DNA of 64,000 bases, from NCBI GenBank assembly GCA_963969365.1, contig OZ017748.1, positions 2,787,001-2,851,000 on the forward strand, in the 5' to 3' direction. A model generated the notes under the pieces. That model saw only the letters and a list, made by a program, of their open reading frames with translations, searched no databases and was not told the origin of the DNA. Shown one piece after another: positions 6,301 to 59,084 of this stretch. Within the stretch, counting starts at the first letter, position 1, and each line of letters begins with the position of its first letter. The stretch is from Asterochloris sp. CNOR1. Taxonomy: Eukaryota > Chlorophyta > Trebouxiophyceae > Trebouxiales > Trebouxiaceae. Made by a program: the position numbers and the translations under genes.

Positions 6301-9300
6301 CCTGCATTGTTGCAGGAGGACCGTCCCTCTGGCGGCTCCACCTACCTTTGCCCCAGTGTTGGCGCTTTCAAGCTGCGACATGGGCAGCTGCGCCCTTTTC
6401 CCCAGCCCACGGCCGCCCCCACCATGCTGGTGCGATGCCATCCTTGCTCACCTTGGCCACCTCGCTGTGGCTTGACTACACATGCAAATGGACTTCATTC
6501 CAGCACTGAACTCTCCTACGTGGCAGCATCTTGCTTCTTGAATCTCTCTCTGTGCAGCCTGCTCTGCTGTGGTCACTGCACAGCATCCCCTGCCCTTTGG
6601 CTTCCCTTCGTCACCATGCACAAGAGAGGCCGGGCATGGCTGACAGCGTCCTCCACCCCCTGCGGGCAGTGTTGCAGGTGCCACAACCATTCAGTACAGC
6701 CCTCAGAAAGCCCTTGGTTGACCTGTGCAGGTGTCAGACTTGGGTGACACCATGGCAGACTTTCTCACAAACAGGAATAGTGTGGACGCCAGCCCTGCTG
6801 ACATCACATCCCTCCTGCCAGGGCACCTGCTGCAGGTGCTGCTTTTGGCTGCGGCAGCCAGATCACGCCATTAGGAGGCTGTTTAGTAATCTGCACAGCT
6901 GCCACCTGTTGACCCCACACATCACCTGAAATGTCCAACATCATTCAGGCCCTGCCTCCTGTCAGCATTTTACCTCTGACAAGCTGCACCACTGCCAGCT
7001 GCTTCTTTCAAATGGATCCCGTTTTGCAGGTGTCAGACCTGGACGGGACCATGGTGGGCACAACCCCAGAGGCTGACGAGATGACGTCTGCCTTCACGCG
7101 ATACTGGGAGGGCACAGCCGCCCTGTGCAACAGTGTGCTCGTGTACAACACAGGGCGCTCCTTAGGGCAGTTCAAGGGGCTGCTGCAGGAGAAGGCGGGG
7201 GTGCTGGCCGTGCCAGACGCACTCATCACGGCTGTGGGAACTAAGGTGGGCTTCTTGAGGGCATTCCCTGAAGAGGCAGATGTTGTCAAGGGGGCTCCTA
7301 CAGGAGGTGTGAGCAATACGTTGTTACTTCACAACACTGGGCGTTTCCCCTCCTGGTGAAGGAGCTCCGGTGGATAAAGGGGGGTGCTGGCCACGCCCAA
7401 CGCGCTCATCACGGCTTGGGGGCCCACCATGTGGGATTCTCAATGTGGCAGCTGAGCCCTATGGGGGAGCTATTGCAGGCTTGGACGGGTGCTGGCCATG
7501 TCAAGTGCGCTGGCTCGGGCCGTGGGCAGCCAGGTGGGAGCTGCAAGGGTTTGGTCAAAGCCCTGAGCAGGCGGGCACTTAGAGCAGCCTGTCATCGTGC
7601 CCACGCTATGCTGAACTGAGATCTGGTAATCGGGAGGTTCTGCGCCAATGCATGAGGTCTGGGATGTGGCATGCTCGGCGTGCTGCATGGCATGGCTCAG
7701 GTCCAGCTGATCAGCACTGTGTGTCCCATGGCAGACGTTGTCACCAGTGGGAGGGGAGCTATGCATGGGCTTCAGGGAGGTGTGCCAGGCCTGACCAGGC
7801 GCCCTGACCCAGCGCCCTGGCCTGCAGATCTTCCTGCTGGACACGGAGGGCGACCTGCGCGGGGGGTGCAGCGGGCAGGCCTGGGTGGAGGACGGGCAGT
7901 GGAACCGTGTCCTGGACGAGGGGTGGGACCTGGGGAGGGTCAAGAAGGTGCGGCTCCTTGGAGCATGCCACAACTTGAGCACTGGGGCACACATCCATCC
8001 AGGCATCAGCTTGCCGGTGGCAGGGAGTGAGTCCGGCATGTGGCCCTGCATGCGCATGCACCGATGCCTGCCTTCAAAACGCAGGCAGGTTGCACGGCAG
8101 GCACAGGGCACAAGCTGAGCAGAGCAGTCCTCAAGACTGGAGACAGGTGAGTACTGCAGGGCTTTCCAGCGCCTGCAAGTTCTTCCTTTGAAACTTCGCT
8201 CCTTGTCCCCTCAGGGCATGCAGGGGCTCAAGCTGCTTTGCACTCCACTGAGACTAAAAGAAGTGCTTCTGTGTCCGTTCAGGCCAAGCAGACGGTGCGG
8301 CTGCAACACCCATGTCAGCTTGGCGCTGCCTGCAGTCTTTGATTTGCAGGGGTGGTTGACCTAGACACTTCGCGGCACAGAACTGAGAACGATGTGATTG
8401 GCCAGGTGCAGCTATTGACCTGTGTGGCCCCCTGCTACAGGTGGCTGAGCAGGTAGTGTCACAGCATGGCAGCGACGGCGCGGTCCACTGGCTGGACCAC
8501 GGCACCGAGCACCCCCACCGCATTGCGCTGAGCGTGCGCAGCGACAAGGTGCAAGTGTGTATGCGCCAGCTGAGCGAGGGGCTGAAGGCGCACGGCGTGC
8601 AGGTGGGTTGCCGGCAGAGGGGCCCAGCACCAGCATTGTCTGCAGGGAGCACTGAAACGTGGCTGTGTCGGCCCCATGTATGAGCATGGTTGGGGCCACT
8701 TCAGCCTGCACTGCTCTGCTGAAGTCAGCTGGAATGGTTGCGCTGCATCCACACACCCTGGTACTGCAGCAGGCATATGATGTGTGACCAGACTGGTTTG
8801 CGTTGGTGCCGGGATCTGGCAGTCACCCCGTGCAGGATCATTTCCTGCTAAGGATGGGCTCTGTGACCTGATTCAGGTGGGTCCAAGTCTGCGCCGTGCA
8901 GGTGGGTTGCCACACACTGCTCTCTGATGCAGGAGAAAAGAGAAGCGCAGCTGCTGGCCCACTGCTGTCAGCAGACCTATCCTCTAAGGAAAGACCAGCA
9001 ACTGAAGCTGGCTGAGATGTAATGCAGTGTGGATGAGTTGTCTCTTGGGACAAGGGCAGATTGCAGGCCTGTGAAATTTCCTGTGTTGGTCAGCTTGCTG
9101 GCTGCACCAGGGAGCAGCCCACAAAGGCTCAAGCATTCCCGATGCCCTGGTCGACTGCTGCATTGGCAAAAGGCTTGTGCCTAGCCATGCATAGCTGCCT
9201 GGTGGTGCCGTCTGCTGGCAAATAGCGCCACTTGGGCTGCATCAGCATTCGAGCTCAGGCTGTTGAGGTTCAGTCTGCTGTTACACTGGCCAACCCCACT

Positions 9301-10113: not shown

Positions 10114-10142
10114 CTCGGGATATCTTCAGGAACACATGACTA

Positions 10143-10147
10143 TGTAA
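10143..10147 (+). terminator. Putative poly(A) signal TGTAA of the CBM-phosphatase gene
   Basis: TGTAA lies 30 bases after the stop codon at 10111-10113. TGTAA is the usual green-algal polyadenylation signal. Confidence 0.5.
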
Positions 10148-15519: not shown

Positions 15520-15825
15520 GAGCCAGGCTCACAGTCCAGCTGCTGCTTAATGAGTGCAAGGGGCAATCCTGACAGCTGTCGCAGGGATCATGTCAGATAT
15601 TGCTGGGAGCAAGTATCGCCTGGAAGACAGCATCTTGCAGGCCGCTTGCCAGGCTGCCTTCCATGGCAGGAACAACACCGCGTATCAAGCCGCGGCAGAT
15701 AAGTCTACTTTAATCAAAGCACTTGTAGTTATATATTATTATATTAAAAGCACTTATAAGTGCTTTTGTTGTGTTGTTTGCTCCCATTCTTCGAGCAACT
15801 CGCGCAGCACGCACTCCCTCGCAAG
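15520..15825. promoter_or_regulatory. Divergent promoter region of histidine kinase and AP-4 sigma
   Basis: These 306 bases separate the two start codons. Bases 15719-15750 are strongly A+T-rich, with TATATATTATTATATT. A perfect palindrome, AAAAGCACTTATAAGTGCTTTT read in two halves, lies at 15746-15767. A third copy of the half-site core (AAAGCACTT) sits just upstream at 15716-15724. No coding frame is supported here. The region is a good candidate for a shared bidirectional promoter. Confidence 0.55.
15746..15767. repeat. Perfect 22-bp palindrome upstream of AP-4 sigma
   Basis: The arms AAAAGCACTTA and TAAGTGCTTTT are exact reverse complements with no loop. It ends 58 bases before the AP-4 sigma ATG. 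It could be a dimeric factor site or a cruciform-prone element. Confidence 0.7.
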
Positions 15826-16736: not shown

Positions 16737-16874
16737 TATACACTAACAGTTTTGCTATGCATTTCATTGCATTGTCTTCGCAGCACGAGAGGCGCTGATC
16801 ATCTGCTCTGTGATGCTGCTCAGCTTGTATATTGCTGGAACTACCCCTCGTCCTCGTCAGAACTTCCTGGTGCT

Positions 16875-21477: not shown

Positions 21478-24400
21478 CTAGGCCCTGCAGTCATTAACAA
21501 CCAGAGACATGCAGACAGATCACTCACCAGGCGTACAACCCTGCAGTCAGCCACTGGGCCACCACTTTGACCCATACACTGGTCCACCCAACATCTATCA
21601 AGTCCTTCTCCTCAGCGGCCGTGCCCCAGCCAGTCATCAGCATGGCAATGTACATGCTGGCCAGCGCAAAGATGAAGTGGAAGAAGCTGTAGTTGTAGGT
21701 GACCTCTTCAAACTCGTCCATGGCCTTCTCATCGCGTTCTGCTGTGCCCTGCCGGCCTGCAGCACATTGACGCAGAGTGGGTGAGGGACGCTGGTAAAGA
21801 CAGAGTTGGCTGGGACAGGTGGAGCCCTCGCTGCGGCTGCCCTAGTGGGCTGCTGCAGGCAGGGGATTGTGTTCAGCGCATGAAGCCGGCTGCCAGTGGA
21901 GGACCGGGGAGGGCGGTGCAAGCAGACAACGTGCAGCCAGCTGGCCTTCTTGCTGTGCTCAGATTTTGCACCGATGAGGTGCAAGGTGACCAGGTGGTAG
22001 CACTTGGCTGCACAATGGCATGCAGCCAGCTCCACAGCTGGGCACAAACAGCAGAGCCGCCTGCACCAGACAAGAGCACCCGACAGGGGGCATATAGAGC
22101 ATGCATGCTGCCCCTCAGGCACCAACTCCTGGGCACTCCCCCAGCTGTGCAGAGGGCAGCCCCTGCCCGGATGGCAGCAGGGGCCCTGCATTCATCCAGG
22201 ACAGGCCTCGCCGGTCCTCCAAGTTCCCTGTCCAGCCCCGCAGAGGTCAGCCCTCCTGCGCGAGACCCCCATCCATGCACCAATGCCAAAGTGATGCAGT
22301 TAGGACCCAGCAACGCAGTGTGCGGGCACATGTGGGCAAGCCTATGCCAACAGCCCCTCTGCGGTGCCGCAAATCTGGGTTGCTGCCGTCCCCTGGATCA
22401 TGATCTGATCCTCAGGCTCTCGACCCAGACCTGCAGACGCGAACCCCTTCTGTCCCCTCATCTAGCCCCCACCAGGGGACAAGAGGCATGGCTCATGTTC
22501 GCTTGAGCCACCGGTACCCCAGCAGCTTGCTGTATCACAGGCCATCTGGACAAGCCCCAACAGACAAGCCGAAACTGCCTCATGGCTCCCCTTCCAGTCT
22601 GCCCCAGAGGCCCTCTGAACCCCCCATGAGCAAGCCCAGCTCACTCATGCGCTGGTCCTGCGGCTCTCCATCCAGGCCGGCGGATGTGAGGCCCTCCTCC
22701 TCATCCACCCCCACCAGGGGCTGCTCCGAGGCGCCCTGCACCCCCCGAGAGAAGGTCTGCGTGTTGCTGCCCGCCCGCAGCGCGCTGTACACCACTGACA
22801 CGATGGTGATGACCATGCCGATGGCCAGAGTGCTGCCTGAGGCCGCCGTCAGGCGCTTGCCCAGGCCGTTGCACTGGTAGTCATGGGGCTCGCTCTGCAG
22901 GGAGCTGTAGCACAGGTAGGTGCAGTAGAGGGTGACCACCGCGGCGGGGAAGAGGCTGCCGTTGCGGGCCTGCAGGGCAGCGGAGGCTTTCAGTCAATGC
23001 AGCTGCACAGGCAGACCATGTTGACTTGGTCATGCAGGGTAGCAGACCACTGCTTGTGGCTGCCTGCAGGGGTGCTGGGAAGGCGTTGCAGCACTGTGCA
23101 AGGCAGGTGCTTCATCTTGAATTTAACAAGCAGGGCAGCATCGCCTGCCCGCCATGCGAGGCTGTTGCCATGCAACAATCAAGGCAGCTTCTGTGCTTCA
23201 ATGCCCAGTGTTCACCAGTGGGTGGATGGACAGCAGAGAGAAGGAAAGGCACAGCAGCAGGGTGAGGACGATGATGACAATGTTGAAGCTGCAGCCGCCA
23301 GCAGCTCCAGCAGGGTTGAACCAGTAGAACATGATGCCGATGAGGGTGAGGGCGCCCACATAGCAGCTGACTGTGAGGCCCAAGAGGCCATACAGGAACC
23401 TGCAGGCAGAGGCGAGGCCACTTGCACCTGCAACTCTGCTGTTCAAGCGCTGCCTGTGAAGGCAGCAGGTGGCATCGTGCAGGGCTGTTGCAGGGTCACC
23501 GGTCACCAGTGATATGGCCGAAGCAACAACACTGTGCTGACCATTGGCCATACATTGAAGATCTGCCTCTCAGCAGGGCAACTGCCCCAGCAGTGTCTCT
23601 GGAACAGCCAGAACTGGCGTCAATGCAGAGTTTGCTGCATGTGTGTAACAAGGCTGCCAGAGCGGCCTGCCATGTGACATGCTGTCGTCCACACTGCTCT
23701 GCAGTCTGCATGTTGACGTGGTTCTGTGCGGCCCAAGTATTTGTCACAGCCTGCACAATGGTATTTCATGACCACTTGGTTGCTCACCTGTGGTCATCCT
23801 TGTTTACCCAGGAGTCATTCCAGCTCTGGGCCATGTCCACCAGGATGATCATTTGGACAATCATGAACACCCCTGACCCGAAGCGTGCCAGCCAGGCTGC
23901 ATGGCAGGCACAGGGTGGTATCAGACGCTGAAGCCTGGGGCAATGCAGTAGTTCACACCTCACAGGCCTTGAATGAGTGCCCTTCAAATGTTCATGCAGT
24001 TCAGCTGCAGCGCCTGGCTAGCAGATGACAATGCCTGAGCCTCTTAGCCTCACTATTAATCAGCGCTGCCCCATGCAATAAGTTGCAGGCTGGCAAGGGG
24101 CTGCCCAGCCACCAGCACACAATTGCCAAAATGCCCACCAAGAGCAGCAGGTTACTCAGCAAAGAGGATCTGCGTGCCCAAACCCCCCAGGAGCCCATGC
24201 CGTCACTCCACATGCAGCCAGATCACTCGGAAGTCTCTGCCTGCCACCCACCATGCAGCAGCTACCGAAAGTCATACATGCATGATTCACCAAGTCATGA
24301 TAGGCATCGACTGCAAGCCAGCTCACGCCAATGCGCCTATAACCCATAAGACCTGCAGCCAGCTTGCCGTGGGCATTGACCCACTTGCTGGGAAGAAGAA

Positions 24401-25952: not shown

Positions 25953-28900
25953 ATGATCTCGCAGTTCTTCATCCTCTCACCGCGCGGGGATACTGTAATC
26001 ACCAGGGATTACCTGGGCAATGTTCCCAAGGTCAGTAGTACTCCTTTGCATGCTGCTCTCGCCTTTTCAGAGCTCTTACATATTCCTGCGTGCATGCGCC
26101 TCCCTGCATGCTGTGTGAAGCCATTGCATGCTCGCTGTGCCTTCATCCTGGCCCAGGCTAGACATCTGGGTGCAGTCTTCAGGCTTTGATGTCAGAGATG
26201 CAATCTGTGGGGTGGTATGCCCTGATGCATGGTGCAAGGCCATCAGATGCAAGCTGCCAGGCCAGCAAGTCCTGGCCAGCTGATGGCAGCACCTTGCTCC
26301 CATGCTGCAGAGCAGCTCTGAGACCTTTTTTCGCAAGTTCCGGTTCTGGGACGGCGGAGGGCAGGATGCTCCCCCAGTGTTTGAGGTGGACGGCATTCAC
26401 TACCTGCACGTGAAGGTGACAAGCAAAAGCTGTGTGCTGTTTGGAAGCACCCCTGAGACCATGCGGCACACAGACCATCTACTAAGTGCGGGCGTGCCCC
26501 GCCACTCACATAGGCAGCCCAGCTGCGTCCCAACATGCAGTCTGCCCCAACGTGCCCGCCCTGCCTGAAGCTGCACCAAGAGCCAACAAGTAATGCCTCA
26601 GAGCCCCCAGAACGCCTGCAGGCTCGAACAGTGTACAGCGTCAGATCTGTGGCCTGCAGGATGGAGGCGTCCTGTTGGTGGCCACCACTCGAGAAAACCT
26701 GTCGCCCTCTCTGGTGCTGGAGCTGCTCAGGCGGATTGGTGGTATCATCAAGGTCAGGCCTGCCGCAGTTGAGCTCCCTGCTGGACTGTCAGTGACACCC
26801 ATTGCTGCACGCGAGGGCCAAGTCTTGCTTCAGGTCTTGTGTGTGAGAGTTCTCCCAGACTTGGGCCGTACCCACTTCAGCAGGTCCTGCGATAGTCAGG
26901 CATACCTGTCAAAGGCTGGTTTCTGCTTCAGATTGTTGGAAGTGAGAGCGCTCCCACCACTGCTCATGGGTGTGCGTAGTTCAGCAGGATGTGTGATGCT
27001 CAGTCATGACTGACACACCAGCTGCCTGCAGGACTACTGTGGCCTGCTGAGCGAGGAGGCCGTGCGTAAGAACTTTGTGCTGATCTATGAGCTTTTGGAC
27101 GAGATTGTGGACTATGGGTATCCCCAGAACAGCAGCAGCGAGGCACTCAAGGAGTTTGTGCTGAATGAGCCCACGCTGATTCGGCCGGTGAGCTCTTGAG
27201 GCCCCTCTGGACCAGCTACATCTGACTGCCCTGTGTAGCATAAATCGCCCTCCACACCATACGCTGCAAAAGCAGCTGTCAGGCTGGAGATAGGCAGCTG
27301 CTGCATGGCTCGGGCTTGCTTGCCAGGCCGTCCTGTCCAGCTGCACCCTGTCTCAGCACTGCTTGCCTGAATGGTACCAGGTGGGACGCTGTGCCTGGTG
27401 CCACTGCACCATCTGTGCTCTAGCTCGACGCCACGCCCATCTCACTATCTCTGTGCTGCAGCGCAAGATGACCAGCAGCAACATCTTCAGCCAGGTGGGC
27501 AAGGGGCCCACTGGGGTCATCAAGTCAGTTCTGGACACAGCCCGCACAGATGGGGGCAGGCGCGACGAGATTTTCGTTGACATTGTGGAGCGCATCAGCT
27601 GCACCTTCAACACCAGCGGCTACGTGCAGGCGTCCCAGATTGACGGGGCCATCCAGGTAGGCAGCTTGCTGAAAGGCTTGTGCAGACAATTCCATGGCCT
27701 CCGGCTGCCTCTTGCGTTGGTAATTGGCAGCACTGCAGGACCCCAGCTTTGTCATGGCCCTTCAGGTGGGCAGCAACCTCCCAGCGTGTCCTGAGCTGCT
27801 GATGACATGTGTGACAAACAAGCAGGAGAAAGCTCTGTGCAGGCCCCTTGCATACGTCAACTTGAGGGCTGACCTGCCGTGAGGGTCACCTGCTCTGGGC
27901 AGTTTTGCCCCAACAGCCTACAGATCTCCAGACTGATGAGGGCCCACCTCCCAGATTGGCAGCTCTGACACAGACAAGGCTTTGGCTGGAGCCTGCCCAA
28001 CAGACAAGTAGCAGGCAGACAGGCAGGCGCCTGATGCGGGCAATGCATGCTGGCTTGTGTCCATATGCTGCCTGCACAGAGGCAGCAGCATGTTCCAACA
28101 TGTGTCACACGGTCTTTGTCTTAGCGCCCAACCCTGTCATGCACAGGTCAAGAGCTACCTGAGCGGCAATCCTGCCATCTCCCTGGCCCTGAATGATAAT
28201 CTGGCCATTGGGCGCCGAGACGGTACCCATGCAGCTGACTACGGGCATGGCTATGGCAGTGACGTGGTCATGCTAGATGACTGCAACTTCCATCAGGCTG
28301 TGTCGCTGGACCGCTTTGACTCTGAGCGTACGTTGGAGCTCAAGCCTCCAGATGGGGAGTTTGCCCTCATGAATTACAGGTGGGGGCCAACAAGCGGCAC
28401 TGCTAGTGTCGCTTGCAGGGGCAGCAGTGGGTTGCCTGGCTACCAGGTCTGTGCCGCTGCCTATGCTCAAACTCCACAGGAGCAAACATTTGACTGTTGC
28501 TGAGGGGAGCTCATTGCTGCACCATGCCCTTGCAGAGATGTCAGCCACTCTGCAACTCTCAGGTTCGTCAGGGTGACTGCAGGAGCACCTTTGACTTCAA
28601 ACCTCCCTTCAAAATTTACACAACAATAGAAGATGATCGCGATGCTCCCAACAAGGTGAGGCTGCCTGCTTTTGGTCTGCCTCAGCATCGCTTGCCCATG
28701 CACACCATGTGCACACACACACACACAACTCATGCCAAAATCAACCGGCTGCATGGATGCTGAGCTGCTGGCAGCCAGCAGGGCAGTGCCTGGACTCCGT
28801 CTGGCGTTCACACATGCACAGACATGGGGAAGACCCCCGCAAGCTCGCTCTTGCAGCTGCTGGCTGCTTAGGGCCAAGTCTACAGGGCCAGCACAACTGG

Positions 28901-30012: not shown

Positions 30013-30038
30013 GAAATGAAGGATAATATTGATTTGCA

Positions 30039-30043
30039 TGTAA
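30039..30043 (+). terminator. Putative poly(A) signal TGTAA of AP-4 mu
   Basis: TGTAA lies 27 bases after the stop codon at 30010-30012. The next gene starts only about 54 bases further on, at 30097. Confidence 0.55.
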
Positions 30044-30096
30044 TCTAGCTGCATGCAACTCTATCTGACGATAGTTAGAAAGCTTTGAACACCACA

Positions 30097-32385: not shown

Positions 32386-35588
<3,203 letters not shown>

Positions 35589-38615: not shown

Positions 38616-38655
38616 TGACCTTGTGACTTGGCGCTCACAGCCAATGCTCAGCAAC

Positions 38656-38886
38656 CCTTGACTGATGGTCTTTACATATGCGAACATGGTCAGCATACCT
38701 CGAGCCACACCTGACATGCTCAACACCTCTTTTCCCATGAACTCGCTGAGCTGCACAGAACCACACCTTGACTGTTTCAACATGCATGGTCTGTACATGA
38801 TGGAACATTGCCAGCATACGTCGAGCCACAGCTAACATGGTCGACACCTCTCTTCCATGAAGTTCATGTGCTGCACAGACCCAACC
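38656..38886. repeat. Two-unit diverged tandem repeat after the DUF3140 gene
   Basis: Units of about 110 and 120 bases each begin CCTTGACTG and continue through similar CAGCATAC-TCGAGCCACA, TCAACACCTCT/TCGACACCTCT and CTGCACAGA segments in the same order. It lies in the spacer between two plus-strand genes and shows no supported coding frame. Confidence 0.65.
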
Positions 38887-44100: not shown

Positions 44101-47017
44101 GCAGGCACTGTGCTGCCACAGACAGGCGCATCGCAGCACCTCTGCAGCCTAGCAGCATGTCAAGCTATGACTGGAAGGCAATTTGGTCCACAAGTCTGCA
44201 GAGAACCTGCCAGCGCAGCAGTCCAGCAGCACACAGTGCCTCATGAAATAGTGGAAGCAGCCTGGCTCCCAGCACCCACCCTGCTGGAGATGCCTGCTAG
44301 TGCTTCAGCTGTCTCAGCTGCAGCCGTGTCTCTGGGGCTGACCACCCCGCTCTGCAAACACTGCAGCAGCATTGCTGCACTGTTGTTACGGTGATCCCTG
44401 GGGTCCAGGTACGCCGCCAAGCCGCTGTCATCATGCCTGCAGAGCCAGCAGATCGATGAGGCAGCATTTACATGCTGCAGTGCAAGCAAGCGATAGGCGC
44501 TTGCAAGTGTTGTGAGTGGTGTCAGGCAAAGAGTGTTCATGTAAAAGCAATGGCAAAAAGGCTGCAGGGTTGGGCGTGCTGGTAGAAGACAGCCAGGCAG
44601 CATAGAAATGTGCTCTAGGCTGTGCTGCACCTGAGCAGGGGAAAAGAGAGCCGTCCCAGCTGGTGGCCGCCCATGGACGTGTCAGGCTTGCTCCAAAGCT
44701 GCAGGCATGCCTCATGCAGTGGCGGCTGGAGTTGTTCCTGTGCAGGGTAGCACTAAACCTCAGTCTCAGGATTGGACTACAGCTCCTGGTGCAGAGGGCT
44801 TGTGGTAAAAATATGGAAGAGCTTGGCCGAGGCATGCCTAGAGATGCAGCTGGCAGGCTGCCACCACAAGCCAGTCCATGGCCTTCAAATGTGGCAGGCT
44901 GGCTGTGCGGCAAGCACAACTAGAGTGCCTGGCAGTGCCACAGACAAAGAGGTTGCTGTCACTCAATGCAGATGGCATATGCTCAAGAGCAAACTTGAGA
45001 ATGCTGATTTGTGCAACCAGAGAGGGCGGCGCACATGGCAGGTACATGAAAGGCTTCAGCCATTTCAGCCATTTTCAGCACTGCTGAAGCAAATCGGGTT
45101 AGGATCACTGCGCGTGGCAAGCATGCAGAATGTCCACGTAGTCCCATGAGCATGCTGACCTGTGCCAGCTGAGAGAAGCTCTGCAGGTACTGCAGGAAGA
45201 GGCTATGAGCCCCTTCCAGCTGGGCACATAAATGCAGCAGCTGTCCACATTGCTGGGCTGAAAAGTGCTCTGCTGCACGCATTATGGTCGCTCTGGTTTG
45301 CTCTGGGTCCACTAAAACCTGCCTGCTGTACTCCCCTGCTGCGCAAGGGCCTGAGCTGATGCCGTTGGTCGCTGTCCCAGAGGCGGCAGTGCCTGTTTTG
45401 CCGACTTGTGCACCGTCACTGCCGCTGCCTGCTGCTGCTGCAGCTGCCAAAGCAGAGGCCTTGGTTGCCCGGCGCTTGCGGAGTATGGTGGCACTGCTAG
45501 GTGCCTTCCTCTTACGCGTCGCTGTGGGCTTGACAGGTGCAGGGACAGAGCCCACGCCATCGGCCAGCTGTGGCATAAGGCCAGTGCGCACCACAGCGCT
45601 GCTGAGCAGATGGATCATGCTGCCTTCCATCAGCCTGAGCAGGTCAGCAATGCCCGCCTGAGTGAGGGGCAAGCACAGCTTGAGCCTGACTGCAGCAACC
45701 GGGCATAGCAGCGCTGCTGCCGTCGCAGCTGGGGCCCCAGGGACAGTTGCACCTGGCATCCCTTTCGTGACGTGCCTTTGAGGCTGCGTCTGCAGCCAAG
45801 CCTGGGAGGTGGCAGCAGGTGCGCTGCTGCTTCCATCAGCAGGCACAGGCGCAGCGTGCATGAGGATGCCACTGGGCAGGCTGTTGCCACTGGGTGCGCT
45901 GCAAACCTGCAGGCTGCCCAGAAACCCCAGCTGGCTCATAGGTGTGGTGGCCATGCTGGCAGCTGTAACAAGAAGCCTGCTGCCACTGCCGCTGGAGCCT
46001 GCAGGCTGGGCCCTCTGCCCTGAGGTGGGTGGGCTGCATTCACAGGAGGCCTGGCCGAGCTTCCGATGCCCAGGTGTCCTGCCATGGCTGCCGCCTAGCA
46101 GGCTGCTGAGCTGGGTCCTGTCAAGCGGAGACAGAAGGCTTTTGAGTGAGATCATGGGAGGGCTGCTGATTGTCGGCTGTGCTGCCTCAACAGCTGGTGC
46201 TCCTGCATTGCAGAGGGTGCAGAACACAGATGGGACTATGGCCTGAATAGCGAGAGACCACAGCCGATCTGTGTTTTGCTGCCTGCACAGCATGTATGCC
46301 TGCATTGAGCCAGCGAGGCATGGCGCTTTGTCAGGTGTAGCGGCCTGCTCATGGCGAGGGTGGTACAGCACCCTGCTTGCGGCCAATGTGCCGGCTCCAC
46401 CACTGCTCTACCTGCTGCATAGCAACTGCAAAGGTTCACTGTGTGCAGCAGCGGGCAACTCATTGCTGGCTGTGCTGTCTCAACGGCAGTGACCTGAGAG
46501 CACAGCATGTGGTGCAGCCTTGCTGGGGCTGCATGGTGCAGCCCAGTGTGCGCTTCCATTCTGACAGTGGCGTAGATTGACATCTCAGGCGAGCAATGCT
46601 CAGGACGCGGGCACCCTGCAACCTCGATACTGAAACCACCTCATACCACTCCTTACCTGTAATTGCTGGAGGCGTCTCTGCTGGCGTGGTCACAAGTGGT
46701 ATACCCTGCCGCTGCCCATGTTTATGGTCTGCACTGTCTGCCTGGCTGGCCAGGTCCTGCTGGCTGGGGGCTGGGAGTCTTAAGGCACTCCAGGCTGGGC
46801 CTGCCTGTGTTGCTACTGCGCTGCCTGAGGTCTCGGCCGGTTTCTGGGAGGTGAAGCCCAGGCTCTCAGCCCTGACCAGTGGCAGGCGGTGCATAGAGTT
46901 GAGCAGGAGGTGTGGGGTGTGCAGCTGCGAGGCTGCCTCAGGCTGTGGGACCACGACTGGGCTCTGGCTTGGGTGCAGCCCAGGTGAGGCAGTAGCGCTG
47001 GCGCCTGATCCCATCAT
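40998..47017 (-). CDS. Degenerate, truncated SNF2-like protein
   Basis: The C-terminal third follows the first RecA lobe of Rad5/HLTF-like SNF2 proteins in order. It has YYSPLLEVLQ before motif I; GGKLQMPGGHARMMALL where GG..(E)PGLGKT is expected; VHGGTLILVASCMLNEWDLQ (motif Ia region); FDVVLATHSALKD and LNRIHWHRV; then DDVH for the DEAH box. KWLLGEHRLCKAGRTDDLKV follows where LTGTPxxNxxDDL belongs. The chain then ends with ELIIEPN and a stop at 40998-41000, so the second lobe is missing. Upstream exons (47017 to about 43400) encode a low-complexity N-terminus with a basic stretch (ATRKRKAPSSATILRKRRAT) and helical parts (QQCGQLLHLCAQLEGAHSLF). I join them because all lie on one strand without interruption, but the N-terminal half could be a separate gene. 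Confidence 0.55.
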
Positions 47018-48212: not shown

Positions 48213-51200
48213 ATGCTGCAGTCCTTTGGACACCGCATGGCAGGAGGCTCGGCAGATGAACTAGCCCAGGTGGGCAGCAGAAGTTTAACTGCAGCCTGCT
48301 GATGAAAGTCTGCGTGCCCTGGCTCCTGTCTGCCCTTTCCTTACGGCACAGCTACCCTCGAGACTGCCTGAAGCCTCCTGTCCTGGCCTTTACCCCCAAG
48401 CATTTAGGGCGCACTGAGGCCCATTGCTCCCATGTGCAGGCCATTGAGATCATTGCTGGCAGATTCTTCTTCACCCCCCTTCGCACAACAGATGGCCTCC
48501 GACAGTCAGAAATTGCACATGCCTCCCTCTGTTTCAACATTGACAATGAGCTAGTGAGCCAGCAGTGGTCTCTTCCTGCCTTGCTGCAGCCAGAAATTAC
48601 GGATGATTGCTCATCATGATCTGTTCTGCAGCAATCTGCCAGCTGATCTTCAGCCACGGTGTCAGGGGCATGCTGCATGACGCTCTCAGCCTGTTGGCCT
48701 GGAGCTACTGCATCTCCTGCCTTGCCGCAGCCAGTTGTTGCTCATTGGCAATCATCACAAGCTGTCCTGTAGCTGCAACAGCCAGCCCCTTCTTCAGCCA
48801 GTGCCTGGAGCACTTCACAAACTGCATTGCAGGTGTATGAGCCCTTTTATGCTGACTTTGGGCCTCTCAATCTTGGCCTGGCTTTCAGCTTCTGCCAGAA
48901 GACCAAGCGCCTGCTGGAGGTGGGCATGAGCCTCCACAGAGGAAGCTGCCTGAGAAGCTGAGAAAGCAGGCTGCAAGTCACCAACTGCCTGCAAAGGCTG
49001 GCTTCAATGGCTGGAACATGCTTCTGTCTCAAAGCCATCTCAGACCTTGCCTGCAGGAAGGAGACCGGCTAAAAAAGCGCGTCTACTTCTGCACGGGCCC
49101 CCATGTGCACCAGAAGGCAAATGCAGCAGTGCTGGTGAGTGCCTAAACCCTGCAGTCTATACTTGGCTGTGGAGGCAGATATCCTTCACGCACACACCAG
49201 CAATGCAGCAGCTCAGGCTGTCACTCTTAGTCTAGCCAGCTTCTCTGTAAAATGCAACCCAGGCTTCTTGATTTGAACAGCAAGCAGCACCGGTGCTGGC
49301 TGCCAGACATCCTCTGATGTGGTAACTCGTGCCGCCCTGCATCTTCTAGGTGGTGTTCCCCGCAGCCAGTAGCCAAAGGGCACTGGCTCTCAGTGTATGG
49401 GAAACCCTTGTGGTGCAGGTGGGCATCTTCCAGGTGGTCTTCCTGCAGCGCACCCCTGAGCAGGCTTACTCCCGGGTACAGAGCCTGCAGCCCTTTGTGC
49501 CCTTCCGCGACGCCTCCTGCGGGCCCCCTTCTTTCCACCTCACAGTGCTGGACTGCGTCCGGGTGGGGCAGCAGCTGCGGGCATCTGGTGGCCCGTCCTT
49601 GCTCCCTGGCAGCTGACAGCAGCAGCTGCTCAGCCTTGGCACAGCACTCTGCAGCAGCTGCATGGCGCTTGCTTGCAGCATGCCGCCCAGACGCAGCCAG
49701 CACATCACATGGTGTTGAGGACTGAGACGTGCAGCAGGCCCCGTTCTTTGGAGCGGCATTGCTTCCAACTTTCAGATAAACAAGCAGCATGTCGCAGCAG
49801 CAGCAGCATGTGTCAGATTCAGCTGCAATGTCCCCTATGACTTGGCACCCTCCTCCCATGAAAGGCAACGTGCTGCAGGGGATTGCCCGTGCCAAGGCTG
49901 CCGGCTTCATTGACTGGGACCAGCCAGGCTGCACCTTCAGCCTGGAGGAGTATCTGCACTATGAGCAGGTTGAGAATGGGGACCTCAACTGGATCGTGCC
50001 GGGTGGGCCATGCTGCCTGCTTCACACCTGCTTCTGGAGAGCCCTGTCTTCTATCTCCCCTGTTGGCTGTGCAGCAGGGCAGGGCTGCAATGGTCCCCCA
50101 AAAATGCTATGCACGCCTTGCCCCTGTGGAAGCAGCTGTATACAGCAGCGGGTGGAAGCTCACTGCTGTCTGCCTGTCCCAGGCCCTTATACACCCACAC
50201 ATTTCGTCCTGCAGGCAAGCCGCACACTCGTGCAGACTCATGTGAAGTCGGACTGGAGCCTTCTGTCCTGCAAATCAGCTTCCCCTTGGGGCCTTGCACC
50301 AGGGTTTTCTTTGTTTCCCCCGCTCACCCCTAACCTCTGCCCTGCAGGCAAGCTGCTGGCCTTTTCAGGCCCTTCTGCGGTGCCCCGCGTCTTCTACGGC
50401 TACAAGTCCTTTGTGCCTGAGGACTATGACACGTACTTCAAGAAACGGGGGGTGAGCGTGTGAAGCGCATGACTGGCTGCCTCTGGTGGTCTGCCTGACA
50501 GGTACAGCACACCATGCTGCGTGGGGCATAGCCAAGAGGCAGTGGGCACAACAGTGGACAAGCTCTGGCCTGTGTTGCGGCAGGTCGTTTGACTTGCAGT
50601 CTGCTTGATGCATCTGCAGAAGGCACTGTATGACGCTGCGCGTGTCACCTTTGACCTTATTGCCTCTTTGCCAGCCCCTTGTGGCTGGAGAAGCTGCCCT
50701 GAAGCTTTCAACTTGGCTGCCAGGTGCGCGCCATTGTACGCCTGAGCAGTGCCACGAATGACGTCGTACGCTTCACAGCTGACCATGCCACATCGTCACT
50801 TGATTCATTTCTTGCTTGTTGCAGGTGCACGCCATTGTGCGGTTGAACAAGGCGATGTATGATGCTGCGCGGTTCACACGTCTGGGCTTTGCACACCACG
50901 ACCTGTACTTTCCCGACGGCAGCTGCCCTTCCGAACTCATCAGGAACAAGTTTCTGCAGATTGTGGAGGCTGATGAGGGTGAGCTGTCAGCTCTTCATGG
51001 CTGCAGCCATGCTTGGCAGCAGTAAGCAGCTGAGTGGGTGCATGCGGCATGTGCACCTCTCTGAGCACAGTCTGCCTCGAGGTGCATTACGCTGTGCTGC
51101 ACGCTGAATCATGGTGTGCTGGCACTCCTTCATGTGATGCAAGGCTGCTGAAGTGTCCACTCTGCTGGCAGACGGTTCAGGCTGAGGAGGGTGAGGCGTC

Positions 51201-54083
51201 TGCCTGGTTTGCTGCTGATGCTGAGCCTGGCTGCTGCTGTAACCAGCTGCTGTTTGCATGCACTGAGAGTGATCTGTGTCTGCTCAAATTTGCTGCAAGC
51301 CATCTGTTAAGTGGTGCTAGCCATGCTGACCTCAACATCCAAAGAATGCTGGCAGCATGGATCATCTGGGGCTTGGGCGGCGCATTGCATGCTGTGCCTT
51401 GAAATGGGCCTCTGCACAGATGGCAAGCAAGTGGGCTCAACACGGCTGCTCTGCTGATGCGCTGTGCTCCACGGCCTGCAGGTGCCTTGGCGGTGCACTG
51501 CAAGGCGGGACTGGGCCGCACAGGCGTGCTGATCTGCAGCTACATGATCAAGCACCACGGGTTCACCGCGGAGGAGGCCATCGGCTACATCCGCATCTGT
51601 CGCCCGGGCAGCGTGATCGGCCTGCAGCAGAACTACCTGATCCAGATGCACGGCAAGCTCGTGCGGGAGGGGCAGCTGTATCGACAGCAACTCATGTCAC
51701 AGGTGAAGCCTGGGGCGCATTGGGGTGGTGCACATGAGGCATCTTTGCACTGCTCTGCATCCACAAGGGGGCCTACGGACCCGGCCTGCACCGTATTGCC
51801 AGCAGGGTAGCAGCTGCTGGCCACGCAGCTGCACCGAGGCTTGCTGTTTTGTGCCGGCCATGCTGCTGGCTGTCAGTACTGCTAGCCACCAGTGCTGCAA
51901 CTGCACACCCAGGCGCCTTACACTGTCCAAGGAGCCAAACAGACTGAAGGACTCAGTTGCCCTCCCCACAATGCAGAGTGCGTCTGCGGTGTCGCCCCAC
52001 CTGGAGCGCATGCAGCCAGCTGTGGAGACACGTGGCATGGCCGCGCAGCGTGCTGCAGCAGCTGCAGGCAGCCTGCTCAAGCCTAGTGAGCGGTCTGCCT
52101 GACTTGACATGTTCCATGCTTGACAGCATTGCAGGGTCATGCGCGGTGCAGCATGGCCATCTGTGCAGCATCGGCTCCCTGAGCATGTTGTTGCCCTCTG
52201 GCAATGTGGCCAGCATGACTGGGAGCTGAGGAAGTGTCCCTCACGCCAAGCCAAGCAAGCTAAGCAGGGCAAAGGTGCTGAAGGCACCTGCTCCATGGCC
52301 ACGCAAGCACCAAAACAACAAAGAGACAACACTGCTCAAATGCTGTCCTTCAGGTGAGCGTCCCTCCTCAGCGGCAGCGCTTCGGAAGGCAGCATTGTCA
52401 GGCAGAACTGTAGATGCGGCCCCTGCCGGTGGGCGCCTGGTGCGCTCTGTGTCGCTCTCTGGGGGCGGCCAGGAGGCCCAGTCAGCCTCTCCTGCAGCCG
52501 GCAAAAGTACCAGCAGCAGCAGCCACAGCAGCAGCCGAACTGCCGGCAGGTGCGCAGAGATTTAGAATTTGATCAGGACACTGCAAGTGCTTTGATCTTT
52601 GCAGCACAGGTTTTGGGGTGCATGGGAAAAAGTGCTGCTGCACCCGGCCACTGGGAGGCCTTTTGGTTTTGACAACACTGTCTCGCGCTTGATGGTGGCT
52701 GCGGCAGCAGGACACACATCTGCAGCCCCGCAGGCTGCACTGTCCAGATCCATGATGGCCCCAGGTGCCGCACACACTGCTCAACACACTCTGGCAAAGT
52801 GCGTCCATGGACGTATGCCTGCTGCCCTGCAGCATGGCCACACCTTGTAACCTCCGAGGCTCAGCGTTCCCTGCTGTCAGACCTGCTTACAGCCCACACA
52901 TGGGGCCCCTGCTGTCTTACAGGTTGGCTAGCTTCCTGACCTCCAAGCCCACCTCGCTGAACCCCTTTGGGCGGTCCACCTTATCCGGGGGCAGCAGCCC
53001 AAGTACCTCTTCAGCTGCCCGTGCCAGCCTGTACTCCAGTGCCAGCAATGACATCCCTGCAGCTGGCAGGCCCTCCAATAGCGGTGGCACCAGCAACCGC
53101 GCATTCTACCCCGGCACCAGCAGCAGTGACGCTTCCAGCAGCCGCTCCACAGCTGTGGGCCCCCTGCAGGCGGGCATGGGCAGCCTTGCTGCAGCCGGTG
53201 CACCTTACCTGAGCAGTGCAGGGCTGGCAGGCAGCAGCAGCAGCAACAGGATCGCCCGCCCAGGGGTCACACGTGCCCTAGCCCCCAATGGCCAGCCCAG
53301 AAAGGTGGGCTGGTCATGCCTTGTCTACCTGTGATCGCTTCATTGTGTGGCACGTGGAGATGAGGTTGCCTCTGGATCCAGCCTTGCAGCCTTCAGTGCT
53401 TCTGGCCAGGTTGCCCGTGCTGTAAGGCGGGGTTGCTGAAGTTCCAAGCCCCTGCCTAGCTTTGGCAGCCAGGGGACAGCATCATGAGAAGGGGCCTCTA
53501 CATGCGCAGGTGCCAGGAGCACCCCTGCTGTCCATGTGTCAATGGCCCTCCTGCAGCCAGGGCAAGGCGGCAAAGTATCTGACATTGGCTTGATCATGCA
53601 GGCGTCAGCAGCACTGCCAAAGGCGGCTGACCTGAGTTAGACAACTGTGGGTGCAAGCAGCCCTGTCAACTTTGACCGACCTAGGTTCAACTGCTGTGAG
53701 TGCTGACAGCCCTGCCACAGCTGCCTGGCCTGGGTGGAATTGCTGTGGGTGTCCACCAGCCCACACGCAGACGGGATGAGAAAGCAAGCAAGCTGACCTG
53801 GCTGGTGTTGCTGCAGCTACCAACAGCCCTCTTGCAGCCGGGCCAGGGTGGCAAGGCTTCAGATGTGCTGACGGATGGCGAGGAGGTCCAGGAGGGCACC
53901 TGGCGCATCGGCACCTCTGCAGCTGTGGCCACCCCAGGGGCAGAGGCTGCCTCCAGTCGGCTGACGTCACGCAGCCATGTTCCTCGTGAGTCTGTTGAAG
54001 GGTGCAGCATGGCATGCAGCAAGCACTGTTGTGGCACAGCCTGTGTAGCCACCTATCAAGTTGTCAGGCTGAAAGGCAGGTAG
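48213..54083 (+). CDS. CDC14: CDC14-type dual-specificity protein phosphatase
   Basis: Catalytic-part exons 48213-48269, 48440-48553, 48833-48919, 49057-49134, 49419-49562, 49879-50002, 50348-50451, 50825-50978 and 51482-51702 all agree in phase. Family marks are [108 protein letters not shown] and the active site [15 protein letters not shown] with the catalytic Cys. Next comes [20 protein letters not shown]. The tail exons 51977-52085, 52354-52549, 52923-53304 and 53817 onward are Ser/Ala-rich and disordered, with many possible CDK or basophilic sites. The last exon may read to 54083 or splice at 53985 to a stop at 54388. Known: CDC14 reverses CDK phosphorylation at mitotic exit and also works at basal bodies and cilia; land plants lack it. 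Confidence 0.92.
50620..50780 (+). repeat. Two decayed copies of CDC14 exon 8 inside intron 7
   Basis: Real exon 8 starts CAGGTGCACGCCATTGTGCG and includes AAGGCGATGTATGATGCTGC. The intron contains CAGGTGCGCGCCATTGTACG at 50721 and AAGGCACTGTATGACGCTGC at 50620, each continuing with further matches (about 24 of 29 bases in the second). The copies are about 104 and 230 bases upstream of the matching exon positions. Neither keeps a usable frame and splice-site set. Confidence 0.75.
51168..51196 (+). repeat. Decayed copy of the 3' end of CDC14 exon 8 in intron 8
   Basis: CAGACGGTTCAGGCTGAGGA then GGGTGAG matches the exon end CAGATTGTGGAGGCTGATGA then GGGTGAG (22 of 27), including the donor site, about 210 bases downstream. 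Confidence 0.55.
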
Positions 54084-55740: not shown

Positions 55741-56482
55741 TTGTCTACCCATGGACTGTGTCAGACTGTGAAGAGGTCACAAGGTGCAAAGCCAGGCGCA
55801 GGGCTGTAGCAGCAGATGGAATGGGAGCCCGCTGACGTCGCTGGCGCAGGGGCGGCTGGGGCCAAGCAAACTGGCAGCTGCCAGGCCAAGCATGGAGCCC
55901 ATTGCATGCCAATGGTGGTGTGAGCACAAGCATGTGCAGCCTGGGGCAGGAGCCATGCAGAGCCGTTTTGCATGAGACCAGGCCCACAGAGTAGTGCACC
56001 AGCTGAGCCTCAAACACTGGTCCAACCATCCAGCAAATCGTGCCCAGGCGCAGCAAGGCTCACTCAAGGGTCCTGCAGGCTGCACGGTGGGCAGCCAAGC
56101 AACAAACCTGTCCCTCTCCAAAAGGCGTGACATGCATGTCAAGTGAGACAGGCCCAGCCCCCGGGTCATGCAGACTGAGGGGTGCGTGCTACCCTGAACA
56201 TAATTCATGCAAGCCACACCCTGACCCATGGTAAGCTTGAGGTGCTGAAAGTATAGCAGCGCTCAACTGAACCACGGCAGCTTGACGGGCGCTGAGCGAT
56301 GCACAGCCTGTCCCACAATGTGACCAAGCCACATCAGGGGTGTCCCCAGCCAGCCACGAACATTGATAGGGAGGCTGCAGAGTGTCTGGCCAAGCGAGCA
56401 CCAAGCCAAGCATCCCCCAGACCTAGACCCAGACCCAGACAGGCCTGACGCGATGTCAGTGAGTGTAGCTGGGGGCTCACCT
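55741..56482. other. Region downstream of the last clear TilS exon
   Basis: Open frames on the minus strand here are rich in Cys and Trp and carry no family signal. It may hold the last TilS exons or its 3' UTR. No RNA gene or repeat seen. Confidence 0.35.
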
Positions 56483-59084
56483 CAGGGTCCGGCAGGCCGA
56501 CGTGAACCACGGGACGCCCGCCCAGCAGCAGCGCCCCGGCCTGCTGCCTCAGCACATCATCCAGCTCAGAGCACGCGCCGCACACGCGCAGCAGGTCCGC
56601 ATGCAGGCTGCGCGGCTGCTGCAGGGCAGCAGTCCCCGCCAAGCCAGCTGCTGCAGCAGCCTCCCCGGTGCTGTGCCCCCTCACAGCCTGGATCACTCGC
56701 GAGCGGGGCTGCCTCTCTGCCCGACGCCCGCCCTGCCCGGGCCCAGCCTGGTAGGCGTGCTGCTGCTGACGGTGCTGCTGCTGCTGCTGCTGCTGCGGCC
56801 AGTGCACAGCCTGCCTGGCAGCGCCACCCTGCGCGCCATTCGGCGCGGCTGCTGCCGCACTGGGGGCTGCACTGTACAGGTGGGCGGGTGGGGGCCCCCA
56901 AGCGCTGCCAACCTGCCCAACAACATCTGCAGGGAGCGCAGGGGCTGGCAGGTGCTGCATGAGCGCCCGCAGGTGGTTACGCAGGTAGTCCTCGTCAATG
57001 TTGGTGGGGTCCCGCACCCAGCGAACGCCCTGCTCCCGCAGGAGCGCCTCCAGCTCGTGCTTGTGCATGTTGAGCAGAGGGCGCAGGTTGAGCACGGGGG
57101 CTTGGCCCACCCCGCCCTTGGCTGCAGGGCAGCACACTTCCACCATTGCACACTCAGCAGGCGCCAAGGGGTGAGCATGGGGGGTCTGACCCTCACCACC
57201 CTTGACTGCAGGGCAGCATGATGCCCAACAGCATGCCCACATCGCACAGAGCAGCAGCAGGCGCTTGTGCAAAAGTGCATGCCAGAGAGCAGAAGGCATG
57301 CTGGAGGCCAGCAGTGGGGAGCAGGACCGCACCAGCGTGCAGGAGCAGGCCTCACGTGAAAGGTCCCAGACCGCGCTCATGATGCCGGCCAGGCCTGCAA
57401 TACCGCTGGCCCTGGTGGCGCGCATGAGGACAGTCTCTGCCTGGTCACCTGCGGGCAGCAGTGGTGGTGGTGTCATCCCCCCGGGGCCGCAACTGCATGC
57501 GCGACGCGGCCAGCCCCATGCACCCCATGTCAGGAGGAACAGCTGCGTGGAGAGCGCTTCTTTGGCTGCCAGACACTGACTCGGTGACCTTCAGGTGTGG
57601 TGACAAGCCCAGCCAGCAGGGTGAGGCCTCGCACTGCCATGCATGGCCAGCCTGCTGCTGCCAAACTGGTGGGCAGCTGTGTTTGTGGCGGCAGGCAGGC
57701 CATGCCGCTGTGCAGGGGCAGCTGACCCGCATGCCGTCCTGGCAGCACAGCATCAATCCCTCAGCAGCTGACCGGCGTGGTGCCCCAGCAGCACGACGTT
57801 GCTCCCTAGCTGGTAGGCGGCTGCCTGCAGCGCGTCCTGGCGGGCGAGCCGCGCAAGCCGCATTGTGGGGCGCGCACTGGTCGCCCACCGCACCTCTGCC
57901 TGCAGTGGGGACACAACAGATGGGTGACTCCCTCCCTTGCAGAGCTCATTGGTTGGAGGAAGATGCAAGAGCATCAGCTGGACAGCAGGGTATGCCACGG
58001 CTTCCCTTGAGGCATGCACGCCAAGTGTCATTGACAAGCGATTTGCCAAGAGAGCATCTGCAGGGCAGTCACTCCCAGCCCTGCAGGTGTGCGTTTCTGC
58101 AACCTGCTGGGTTGGAAGCCACACCGCCCACCCATCATAGGTGACACCCAGGGCAGGCTGTCACCGGCCTCACGCAACTCACCTGCAGGGCGGTCATGCC
58201 CAGGCTGCGTGCGTGCTGCGCGCCCACAGCGGCCTCCCACACACTCTCCGCCCGCAGCCCATGGTCCACGCAGACAGCGGCCACAACTTGCCGGGAGTCG
58301 GCGTCCCCAGCAGTGCCAGCAGCCTTGGGCCCATCCAGGCTGCCGGCTGCTGCCGAAGCCGCTCTGCCTGCTCTGTCACGAAGTGAAGTCAGCGGGCTGC
58401 TTGCTGCTGCGGGGAGAGGGCGCTCTGCTGCGGGCTCCTGGCGAGGAGGATTGGGCAGCAGCCTGACTTTGAAGTAGCTCTGCTGCGGGGGCGGGGGCGG
58501 GCGCTCCATGCCCTGCGTTGCAGGGCTGTCATGGTCGCCTGACGAGATGACTGGGAGGTCCAACTGCTGGCGAAGCTGGTGCACCGGCCAGAGGAACTGC
58601 GGGGCAGTCTCGGGGGTGGGGTTCACCAGGTCTGCTGGCGCCACGCTGTGCAGGGCCTCTGCAATCTCAGCAGTCGGCGGCTCTGCAGGGCACCAAGTGC
58701 TGCGTCACAGCCAGGAGCATCAGTGGGATGCTTCAGGCAAGGGGGCGCCGTGGAGGCTTGACATGCAGGCGGTCCGGTCATCAATCATGCTGTGTTTTGG
58801 ACAGCTCGGGCAGCAGACAGCATTGCTCAGCATAATAGCACGATGCAGCCCAGCCGCAGAAACTGCTGAGCAAGAGCCACACCTGCTGCCCGTGTCCACC
58901 ATGCAGTGAGAGTCGTCAGCGCCATGCTGTCAGGCCCAGCAGACAGAGCAACAGCCACATTGCTGTTAGGGCTGAGCCCAATGCGGGCCATCTCTGCTGC
59001 AAAGCGCCTGGCCAGTCTCGCTGAAACTGACATGTGCCCTTCACGCCAGGCGCAAGGCTGCCGAAATGCGGGCAATCCCGTCAA
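56483..59084 (-). CDS. tilS: tRNA(Ile)-lysidine synthetase
   Basis: Starts at 59084 (MTGLPAF) or the internal Met at 59033 (MSVSARLARRFAAEM). The PP-loop ATP motif is SAGPDSM (SGGxDS in most relatives). Then come VDHGLRAESVWEAA, GSNVVLLGHHAG spliced to DQAETVLMRATRASGIAGL, and LNLRPLLNMHKHELEALLRE with VRWVRDPTNIDEDYLRNHLR. This order is diagnostic for TilS, which converts the C34 of tRNA-Ile(CAU) to lysidine so that it reads AUA. In plants and algae it serves plastid translation. Oddities: a Pro-rich insertion of about 100 residues between the PP-loop and VDHGLR (about 58644-58320), a poly-Gln run from a CTG tract at 56773-56796, and G-to-A in SGGxDS. The clear coding part ends at the donor next to 56482; terminal exons are unresolved. 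The start is only 123 bases from the next gene's start. Confidence 0.85.
56773..56796. repeat. CTG/CAG tract encoding poly-Gln in TilS
   Basis: About eight uninterrupted CTG units; on the minus strand they read as a Gln run (PQQQQQQQHRQQQHAYQ). It lies in the C-terminal part, beyond the catalytic core. Confidence 0.75.
57173..57218 (-). repeat. Decayed copy of a TilS exon start, 83 bp away
   Basis: The exon start at 57134-57090 on the minus strand, with its CTGCAG acceptor, is duplicated at 57218-57173 with about 80 per cent identity. The shared frame reads CCPAAKGGVGQAP in the real copy and CCPAVKGGEGQTP in the other. Confidence 0.7.

Follow-up and report, generated by a model that had tools for sequence, protein, structure and literature searches.

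The origin of intron sequence is a long-standing question that is usually approached via whole new introns. In the window studied here, the whole 64-kb stretch of Asterochloris DNA, the question takes another form, as introns of unrelated genes contain decayed copies of the exons next to them. A preliminary description of this DNA had reported such copies in at least four genes (a CBM-phosphatase gene, a DUF3140 gene, CDC14 and TilS) and had suggested that short tandem duplication around splice junctions, followed by decay, acts across the genome, adds to intron length and occasionally supplies new cassette exons. All four genes do carry exon copies, in direct orientation, at offsets of 83-229 and with 72-86% identity. 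Are they part of a general pattern, how did they arise, and what becomes of them?

Materials and methods

The sample comprised the window and 23 stretches of 10 kb from 18 chromosomes, 294 kb in total or 0.52% of the genome. The genome measures 56.38 Mb in 21 contigs, of which 18 are chromosome-sized and the others are 43 kb, 110 kb and at least 203 kb long. Sampled stretches are denoted by L numbers (L003, L008, L013 etc.), with positions internal to each.

Genes were predicted ab initio with a two-strand hidden Markov gene finder, which was written for this analysis, seeded with a general splice consensus and self-trained on the same 294 kb. After training, the consensus was CAG/GTGAG for donors and CTGCAG/G for acceptors (the slash marks the junction). 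Gene structures are intron-rich, with about eight introns predicted for each gene (613 in 77 gene pieces), and the final pass contained 643 predicted introns in the 294 kb. All eight of the 15 window models that were submitted to Pfam matched families, and the predicted CDC14 protein aligned with human CDC14A at 327.7 bits, the alignment including the exon that has copies. The gene finder occasionally takes a copy for an exon. It also predicted a gene at 25953-32148 of the window that joins an adaptor medium subunit to an alpha/beta hydrolase-like part (the latter recognised by eye), probably two genes that it merged.

We retained 139 direct repeat pairs with offsets of 40-699 in the 294 kb. 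Exon-intron pairs (73 of the 139) were those in which one copy had at least 8 exon bases and the other at most a quarter as many, with little intergenic sequence; the other 66 pairs stood outside the test of the side on which copies lie. For the alignment of introns to adjoining exons the splice consensus was trimmed, the 618 introns for which the exons on either side had been modelled were used (25 of 643 were dropped), and introns of up to 60 nt were scored as zero.

Results

Direct repeats at short offsets

With a threshold of 31 bits and offsets between 60 and 600 bp, self-comparison of the 294 kb gave 138 direct and three inverted matches, and the eight best matches of the window with itself were all direct, with offsets of 69-247. 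An ungapped scan found 62 runs at offsets of 60-139 (0.78 per offset base) versus ten at offsets of 600-2499 (0.005). The 139 retained pairs represent 99 independent families and are spread over 27 of 29 ten-kb blocks with at least one local pair each (the window's final 4 kb excluded), although they are clustered (index of dispersion 2.6 over the 29 blocks). AGGT or ACCT is retained in 44 of the 139 pairs, and the words TGCA, GCAG, CAGG and AGGT are also conserved in the copies, which is consistent with duplicated splice sites.

The excess was also present when each of the 618 introns was aligned to its adjoining exon. A Smith-Waterman score of at least 34 was reached by 28 matches, compared with none for the reverse complement and 0.3 for shuffled pairs, and a score of at least 30 by 41 matches, compared with three and 2.7. 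All ten matches with a score of at least 42 were located at the exon end adjoining the intron. These results confirm that the observed exon-edge copies are real and widespread.

One of the blocks, L014 (C13:500001-510000), was free of duplication pairs; its GC content was the lowest (52%), and four introns were predicted in its 10 kb. It could be a foreign insertion; low-GC viral regions have been described in Asterochloris, according to the available part of PMC6652019. At L017:1760-2180, one acceptor with its exon start is present in four successive copies with uneven spacing, and further multi-copy runs were seen in L016, L019 and L010. The window also contains two perfect palindromes, of 22 bp (15746-15767) and 20 bp (62976-62995).

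Exon copies in the genes of the window

The CBM-phosphatase gene (plus strand; S6PP and AMPK1_CBM matches) has the largest number of copies, which were located by self-search and gene model. The source copy at 7197-7238, near the end of exon 7030-7245 in the HAD/S6PP part, recurs in decayed form on the donor side, 3´ of the exon, at 7380-7420 (offset 183, 86% identity). The end of exon 4177-4287 with its donor (4248-4296) is repeated 3´ of the exon at 4327-4373 (offset 79), where the donor-like site GGTGAGCCAG is retained. The end of exon 8441-8602 with its donor (8593-8612) recurs 3´ of the exon, within the intron, at 8892-8911 (95% over 20 bp, offset 299), a match that is weak alone (E about 1). 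In the region 6726-6835, positions 6726-6755 are an acceptor-spanning repeat of 7025-7054, and 6731-6835 was modelled as a 105-nt in-frame exon; since the S6PP score rises from 127 bits with this predicted exon to 132 bits without it, it is probably a copy or a cassette exon.

In the DUF3140 gene (plus strand; self-search and gene model), the end of exon 36928-37161 with its donor (37126-37166) is copied at 37277-37317 (offset 151, 85%). The copy has an acceptor-like and a donor-like site and 30 nt in frame (37283-37312), with which the family score is 71.8 bits, compared with 80.9 bits without them. The real CDC14 exon 50825-50978 (plus strand), supported by the gene model and the human CDC14A alignment, has two decayed copies of its edge. 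The first, of the acceptor and exon start (50822-50878), lies 5´ of the exon at 50721-50777 (offset 101, 72%; E 0.99 alone), and the second, of 50849-50877, at 50620-50648 (offset 229, 83%; E 3.5 alone). Another exon of this gene, 53817-53985, has a weak copy (E 3.5) of its start (53826-53854) 5´ of the exon at 53545-53573 (offset 281; self-search and gene model). In TilS, which is encoded on the minus strand and recognised by ATP_bind_3 at 56964-57086 in addition to self-search and gene model, the acceptor and start of exon 56481-57121 (57086-57134) have a decayed copy at 57169-57218, 5´ of the exon in the sense of the gene (offset 83, 82%); a 9-nt exon predicted inside it (57197-57205) is probably a model error. 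In the 64-kb self-search, single-pair E values are 1e-5 to 5e-5 for the CBM-phosphatase (7197-7238), DUF3140 and TilS pairs but 0.99 and 3.5 for the two CDC14 pairs. The splice-site bases, which had been described as part of the matches, are included in the DUF3140, TilS and first CDC14 copies, but the CBM-phosphatase match at 7197 ends 7 nt short of the site and that of the second CDC14 copy 24 nt short. Besides this nuclear gene, TilS-type domains are encoded at C21:12057-12566 and C21:202866-203039; C21, which is at least 203 kb long, could be the plastid genome.

Copies are also found beyond these four genes, again by self-search and gene model. For a Serinc gene on the minus strand (also supported by Pfam), the end of exon 22645-22969 (22645-22720) has a decayed copy 3´ of the exon at 22398-22478 (offset 247, 74%). 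On the same strand, the start of exon 46044-46202 (46160-46194) has a weak one (E 0.99) 5´ of the exon at 46453-46487 (offset 293). In a CH-domain gene (plus strand), the acceptor and start of exon 61962-62126 (61951-62005) are repeated 5´ of the exon at 61867-61916 (offset 84, E 0.99) with TGCAG retained, and the same intron contains an all-intron duplication (61698-61739 and 61806-61846, plus strand). The strongest duplication of the window, at 38665-38883 (99 bp, 82%, offset 121), is intergenic in the gene model, and the process is thus not confined to exons.

Copies lie on the intron side of the junction

Among the 73 exon-intron pairs, 26 cross an acceptor only, 23 a donor only, one crosses both and 23 neither. 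The copy lies 5´ of the real exon in all 26 acceptor-crossing pairs and 3´ of it in all 23 donor-crossing pairs; counted by independent family, this side rule holds in 43 of 43. Random placement of units with the same lengths and offsets gave 7.5 acceptor-crossing pairs with the copy 5´ and 3.7 with the copy 3´, and 7.3 donor-crossing pairs with the copy 3´ and 3.4 with the copy 5´. Copies on the wrong side thus made up about one third by random placement (7.1 of 21.9), versus none of the 49 single-junction pairs observed. In 22 of the 23 non-crossing pairs the repeat was nearer the junction on the side of the copy. In these 22 pairs as in all 43 families, the copy contiguous with the exon body is the exon and the other lies on the intron side. 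The rule is the geometry of a contiguous duplication over one junction, in which the copy that remains attached to the exon body codes.

When units of the observed lengths were dropped at random, 31% covered one junction, 27% fell in introns, 11% in exons, 13% touched intergenic DNA and 10% contained a whole exon. The 139 observed pairs were 75 exon-intron pairs, 28 all-intron pairs, four pairs within one exon, 14 that touched intergenic DNA and 18 with both copies exonic but in separate predicted exons. In a coarser sorting, 62 exon-intron pairs were observed versus 46 by random placement (sd 5.5), 50 intron-intron pairs versus 55 and 14 exon-exon pairs versus 19. Since all-intron and intergenic duplications occur, splice junctions need not be targeted; of the proposed duplication around splice junctions, it stands that junction-spanning units are common, whereas specificity for junctions is not required. 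Exon-intron pairs may be over-represented because selection holds one copy and would keep the pair recognisable for longer. Pairs within one exon are scarce (four of 139 versus 11% expected; three of the four in frame), and this fits the prediction that they are purged.

The gap between the copy and the real acceptor was below 40 nt in two of 37 acceptor-side and five of 36 donor-side pairs; we looked at a minimum of about 40 nt here and do not claim one. Nor do we take a sharp minimum offset near 60 as evidence for a lower limit of intron size, because closely spaced pairs, once decayed, are also not long enough to be detected.

Decay and constraint

The copies are 66-96% identical. In the exon part of the 73 exon-intron pairs their divergence is 0.171 at the first, 0.138 at the second and 0.239 at the third codon position, and of the single changes a share of 0.418 is synonymous, versus 0.299 under random placement. 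The constraint is one-sided: both values agree with a pair in which one copy is constrained and the other drifts. The high share of transitions noted in the preliminary description was found in exon columns (295 transitions and 228 transversions in the 73 pairs) but not in intron columns (84 and 110). Intron columns within the matches diverge by 0.160, less than third codon positions (0.239), which runs against simple neutrality; the splice site and local-match selection perhaps explain this.

The copies contain six stop codons, compared with 14.4 when the same changes were placed at random (two of 500 simulations were as low). One-sided constraint explains this deficit in part, and some copies may still code or may have done so until recently. 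Splice bases are often kept, in 20 of 27 copies at position -2 and 26 of 27 at -1 of the acceptor AG and in 22 of 24 at each base of the donor GT. Frame-changing gaps are present in 20 of the 73 pairs. Purging of the spare splice site was considered from the difference between -2 and -1, where the numbers are too small to claim it.

Abutting units and spaced copies

In several well-preserved pairs, but not in most pairs, the aligned length is about equal to the offset. Full abutting units include the exon-intron pairs at L008 6918 (121 bp, offset 119) and L003 7127 (60 bp, offset 65) and the all-intron pairs at L021 9778 (64 bp, offset 64) and L009 1148 (100 bp, offset 100). The median ratio of aligned length to offset is 0.34 (exon-intron pairs) or 0.44 (all-intron pairs), and partial pairs can be well preserved, too (L019: 77 bp, offset 131, 86%; L017: 47 bp, offset 231, 91%). 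Over the 139 pairs the fraction of the offset that is aligned drops with rising identity, from 0.70 at 60-70% to 0.21 at 90% or more; this trend is biased, since short matches are retained only at high identity, and it gives no support for full units.

We also considered the prediction that similarity continues into the intron part of a unit. Flanks extended past the local match in only three of 130 cases for exon-intron pairs and two of 46 for intron-intron pairs, while simulated flanks with 40% divergence were detectable in 92 of 100. The intron part was similar (p<0.05 versus other introns) in 21 of 70 pairs with 3.5 expected, namely in 13 of 35 acceptor-side and eight of 35 donor-side pairs with 1.75 expected for each. 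It was similar in eight of 16 acceptor units whose intron part measures 20-80 nt, with z values of 8-11 in three, and in one of ten short donor-side units; the intron parts of the L008 unit, of L024 (45 nt) and of L021 (47 nt) are 86-90% alike. As the flanks of all-intron pairs also end sharply, sharp ends are not peculiar to exons. That most matches are sharp-ended and shorter than their offset speaks against a simple form of tandem duplication and is the chief weakness of that explanation; heavy intron turnover by large insertions and deletions, or else spaced copying, is also needed.

Discussion

Origin and fate of the copies

We consider it probable that the copies stem from short tandem duplications that happened to span one splice junction, after which the copy joined to the exon codes and the other turns into intron and decays. 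Head-to-tail duplications with units of about 60-400 bp would be frequent, wherever they fall in the genome. Where a unit covers exactly one splice junction, the copy continuous with the exon would keep coding and the other would lie wholly on the intron side. The splice site beside the intact exon would be used and the protein would remain unchanged, so that the duplication event would survive. The spare exon edge and the spare splice site would become intron and decay, leaving the intron longer by one unit. Duplications within an exon would mostly be purged, and those within introns would be retained but fade faster, since both copies drift. That most pairs were abutting at birth and that the real copy is the one spliced we infer, as we do the mutational step itself. 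The proposal that short duplication followed by decay adds intron length as a genome-wide process is supported by the ratio of direct to inverted repeats, by the side rule and by the intron-exon alignment.

Splice junctions might act as a one-way valve for such duplications. Those that span a junction would escape selection, since splicing discards the spare copy and hides the event, and a high duplication rate would lead to intron growth; junction duplication would be a main source of intron sequence in this lineage; and a standing stock of spare splice sites would be left, possible starts of cassette exons. These three statements taken together are a tentative reading, which we hold to be possible but doubtful. 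Of all predicted intron bases, 8.6% lie within one detectable unit, probably a lower bound because older units fade. The 89 of 643 introns that touch a detectable repeat have a median length of 300, compared with 200, a difference that results partly from longer introns offering more room. New cassette exons, the other proposed outcome, are possible for two candidate copies judged by their open frames, those of the DUF3140 gene (30 nt) and the CBM-phosphatase gene (105 nt).

Alternative explanations

Spaced copying could be the result of templated repair (SDSA or template switching), in which segments of 30-100 bp are copied nearby and the copies are spaced from birth. This would account for copies that are usually far shorter than their offset and have sharp ends, and vertebrate repair-mediated duplications lie near their source with a median of 147 bp, as given in the available text of PMC2671141. 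However, the nearly uniform direct orientation (138:3), the absence of copies on the other side of the exon (none of 49 single-junction pairs) and the full abutting units among well-preserved pairs speak against it, and we regard it as rather unlikely. Selection for working alternative exons, either mutually exclusive exons or alternative splice sites, would agree with the splice bases that are often kept, with the six stops in place of 14.4 and with the two window copies that are open and in frame. Yet the divergence at third positions, only about 1.5 times that at positions 1 and 2, is accounted for by one-sided constraint. Gaps that shift the frame occur in 20 of 73 pairs, one of 73 crosses both junctions of its exon, and the family scores are higher without the two in-frame window copies; there is little chance that this explanation is right. 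Artefacts of assembly or gene finding deserve next to no credence: the gene models are ab initio and were trained on the sequence they describe, but the copies (66-96% identical) are unlike near-identical mis-assembled duplicates, the repeat excess is independent of the gene models, and all eight models given to Pfam matched families. Mobile elements (introners or transposons) are not supported, as both loci that were searched have one match each in the 56-Mb genome (the search skips very common words); for these two examples the origin is a single locus.

The presence of CAG/GT in both copies of several pairs prompted us to consider intron birth according to the Rogers model, in which an AGGT-bearing exon segment is tandemly duplicated and the copies become both ends of a new intron. 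Five introns have at least 28 of 63 matching bases versus 1.1 in shuffled data (588 usable of 643), the loci L013 545-748 and L024 521-818 are candidates, and in 12 of the 73 exon-intron pairs the copy extends to 8 nt or less from the modelled intron's far end. But in the other 61 it stops short of that end, and no 5-nt junction bin of the 588 introns exceeded the shuffled data in register at z of at least 2, slid registers being similar. We rejected this model as the main cause, for which it is highly improbable; it may hold for a few loci. L013:545-748 (C12:500545-500748) consists of a 68-bp unit in three copies that are 93-96% alike, with TTGCAG/GT in register, and holds a modelled 135-nt intron about two units long, which makes it a candidate for a very recent AGGT-type intron birth. 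L024:521-818, a second candidate locus for intron birth by duplication, contains an exon-intron and an intron-exon half in register (offset 253) with CAG/GTGAGG in both and a predicted 3-nt exon between them.

Comparison with known systems

With short tandem duplication over one junction as the preferred explanation, one legible source of intron sequence is pieces of the neighbouring exon, kept in order and orientation. As the side rule is simple to count wherever a genome is annotated, one can measure how fast introns grow by duplication and how often spare splice sites lead to alternative exons.

Introner elements, which form multi-copy families, also provide new intron sequence in green algae; unlike introners, the two loci searched here are single-match. 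Intron gain via tandem duplication of AGGT was reportedly put forward by Rogers in 1989 and by Gao and Lynch in 2009. It shares with our copies a tandem duplication of which one copy is intronised, but it presupposes in-register copies at each end of the intron, and nearly all introns here lack them. The cases that follow are given as the available parts of the articles describe them. In Drosophila, intron gains by tandem duplication have been described (PMC2891723), and another study found one gain resembling tandem duplication and six with short direct repeats at the splice sites (PMC2809761). Donor duplications in Lipomyces are 4-7 nt long (PMC7138796). Repair-mediated proximal duplications are, like ours, short and local and some contain exons or splice sites, but they have a mean spacing of 1.2 kb, copies within 50 bp were excluded as tandem, and one exon copy is inverted (PMC2671141); the copies found here are almost only direct and one-sided.

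Tandem exon duplication likewise leaves unannotated exon copies in introns (PMC9013439, citing Letunic 2002). Like those found here, they are exon-like and lie in introns of the same gene on the same strand; in the text available, they are treated mainly as possible mutually exclusive exons, whereas ours are exon edges with one junction, and duplication of a whole exon with both splice sites was seen in one of the 73 exon-intron pairs. Exonic bases for which a copy of at least 80% identity exists are given there as about 2% in human, 0.08% in fly and 0.06% in worm. In our sample 1.42% of exonic bases have a non-exonic copy (at least 80%, within 700 bp), and the comparison is rough, as the search in that study was different and wider.

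The preliminary description knew of no named account of such copies for green algae. The genome of Trebouxia is described in PMC12712428, and a genome-wide green-algal account was absent among the matches listed in the open-licence literature, which is weak evidence of absence. Precedents do exist: intron gain and exon duplication by tandem copying have been described in animals, plants and fungi, as far as the available passages go, and there is a single-gene precedent in potato RdRp. The ingredients are thus mostly known, and as far as our searches show, the frequency of the copies and their one-sided rule are the new part among the matches listed. The closest precedent among these matches is the single potato gene, in which a tandem duplication extends across an intron-exon boundary (PMC4974935). 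As in our data, the unit there consists of an intron end and an exon start, and the upstream exon copy is partly intronic. Unlike here, the available text concerns one gene, and the event is read as an intron gain with a recruited donor, whereas the Asterochloris sample contains 99 local-repeat families in 294 kb, of which those at exon edges, on acceptor as well as donor sides, were mostly absorbed by an existing intron.
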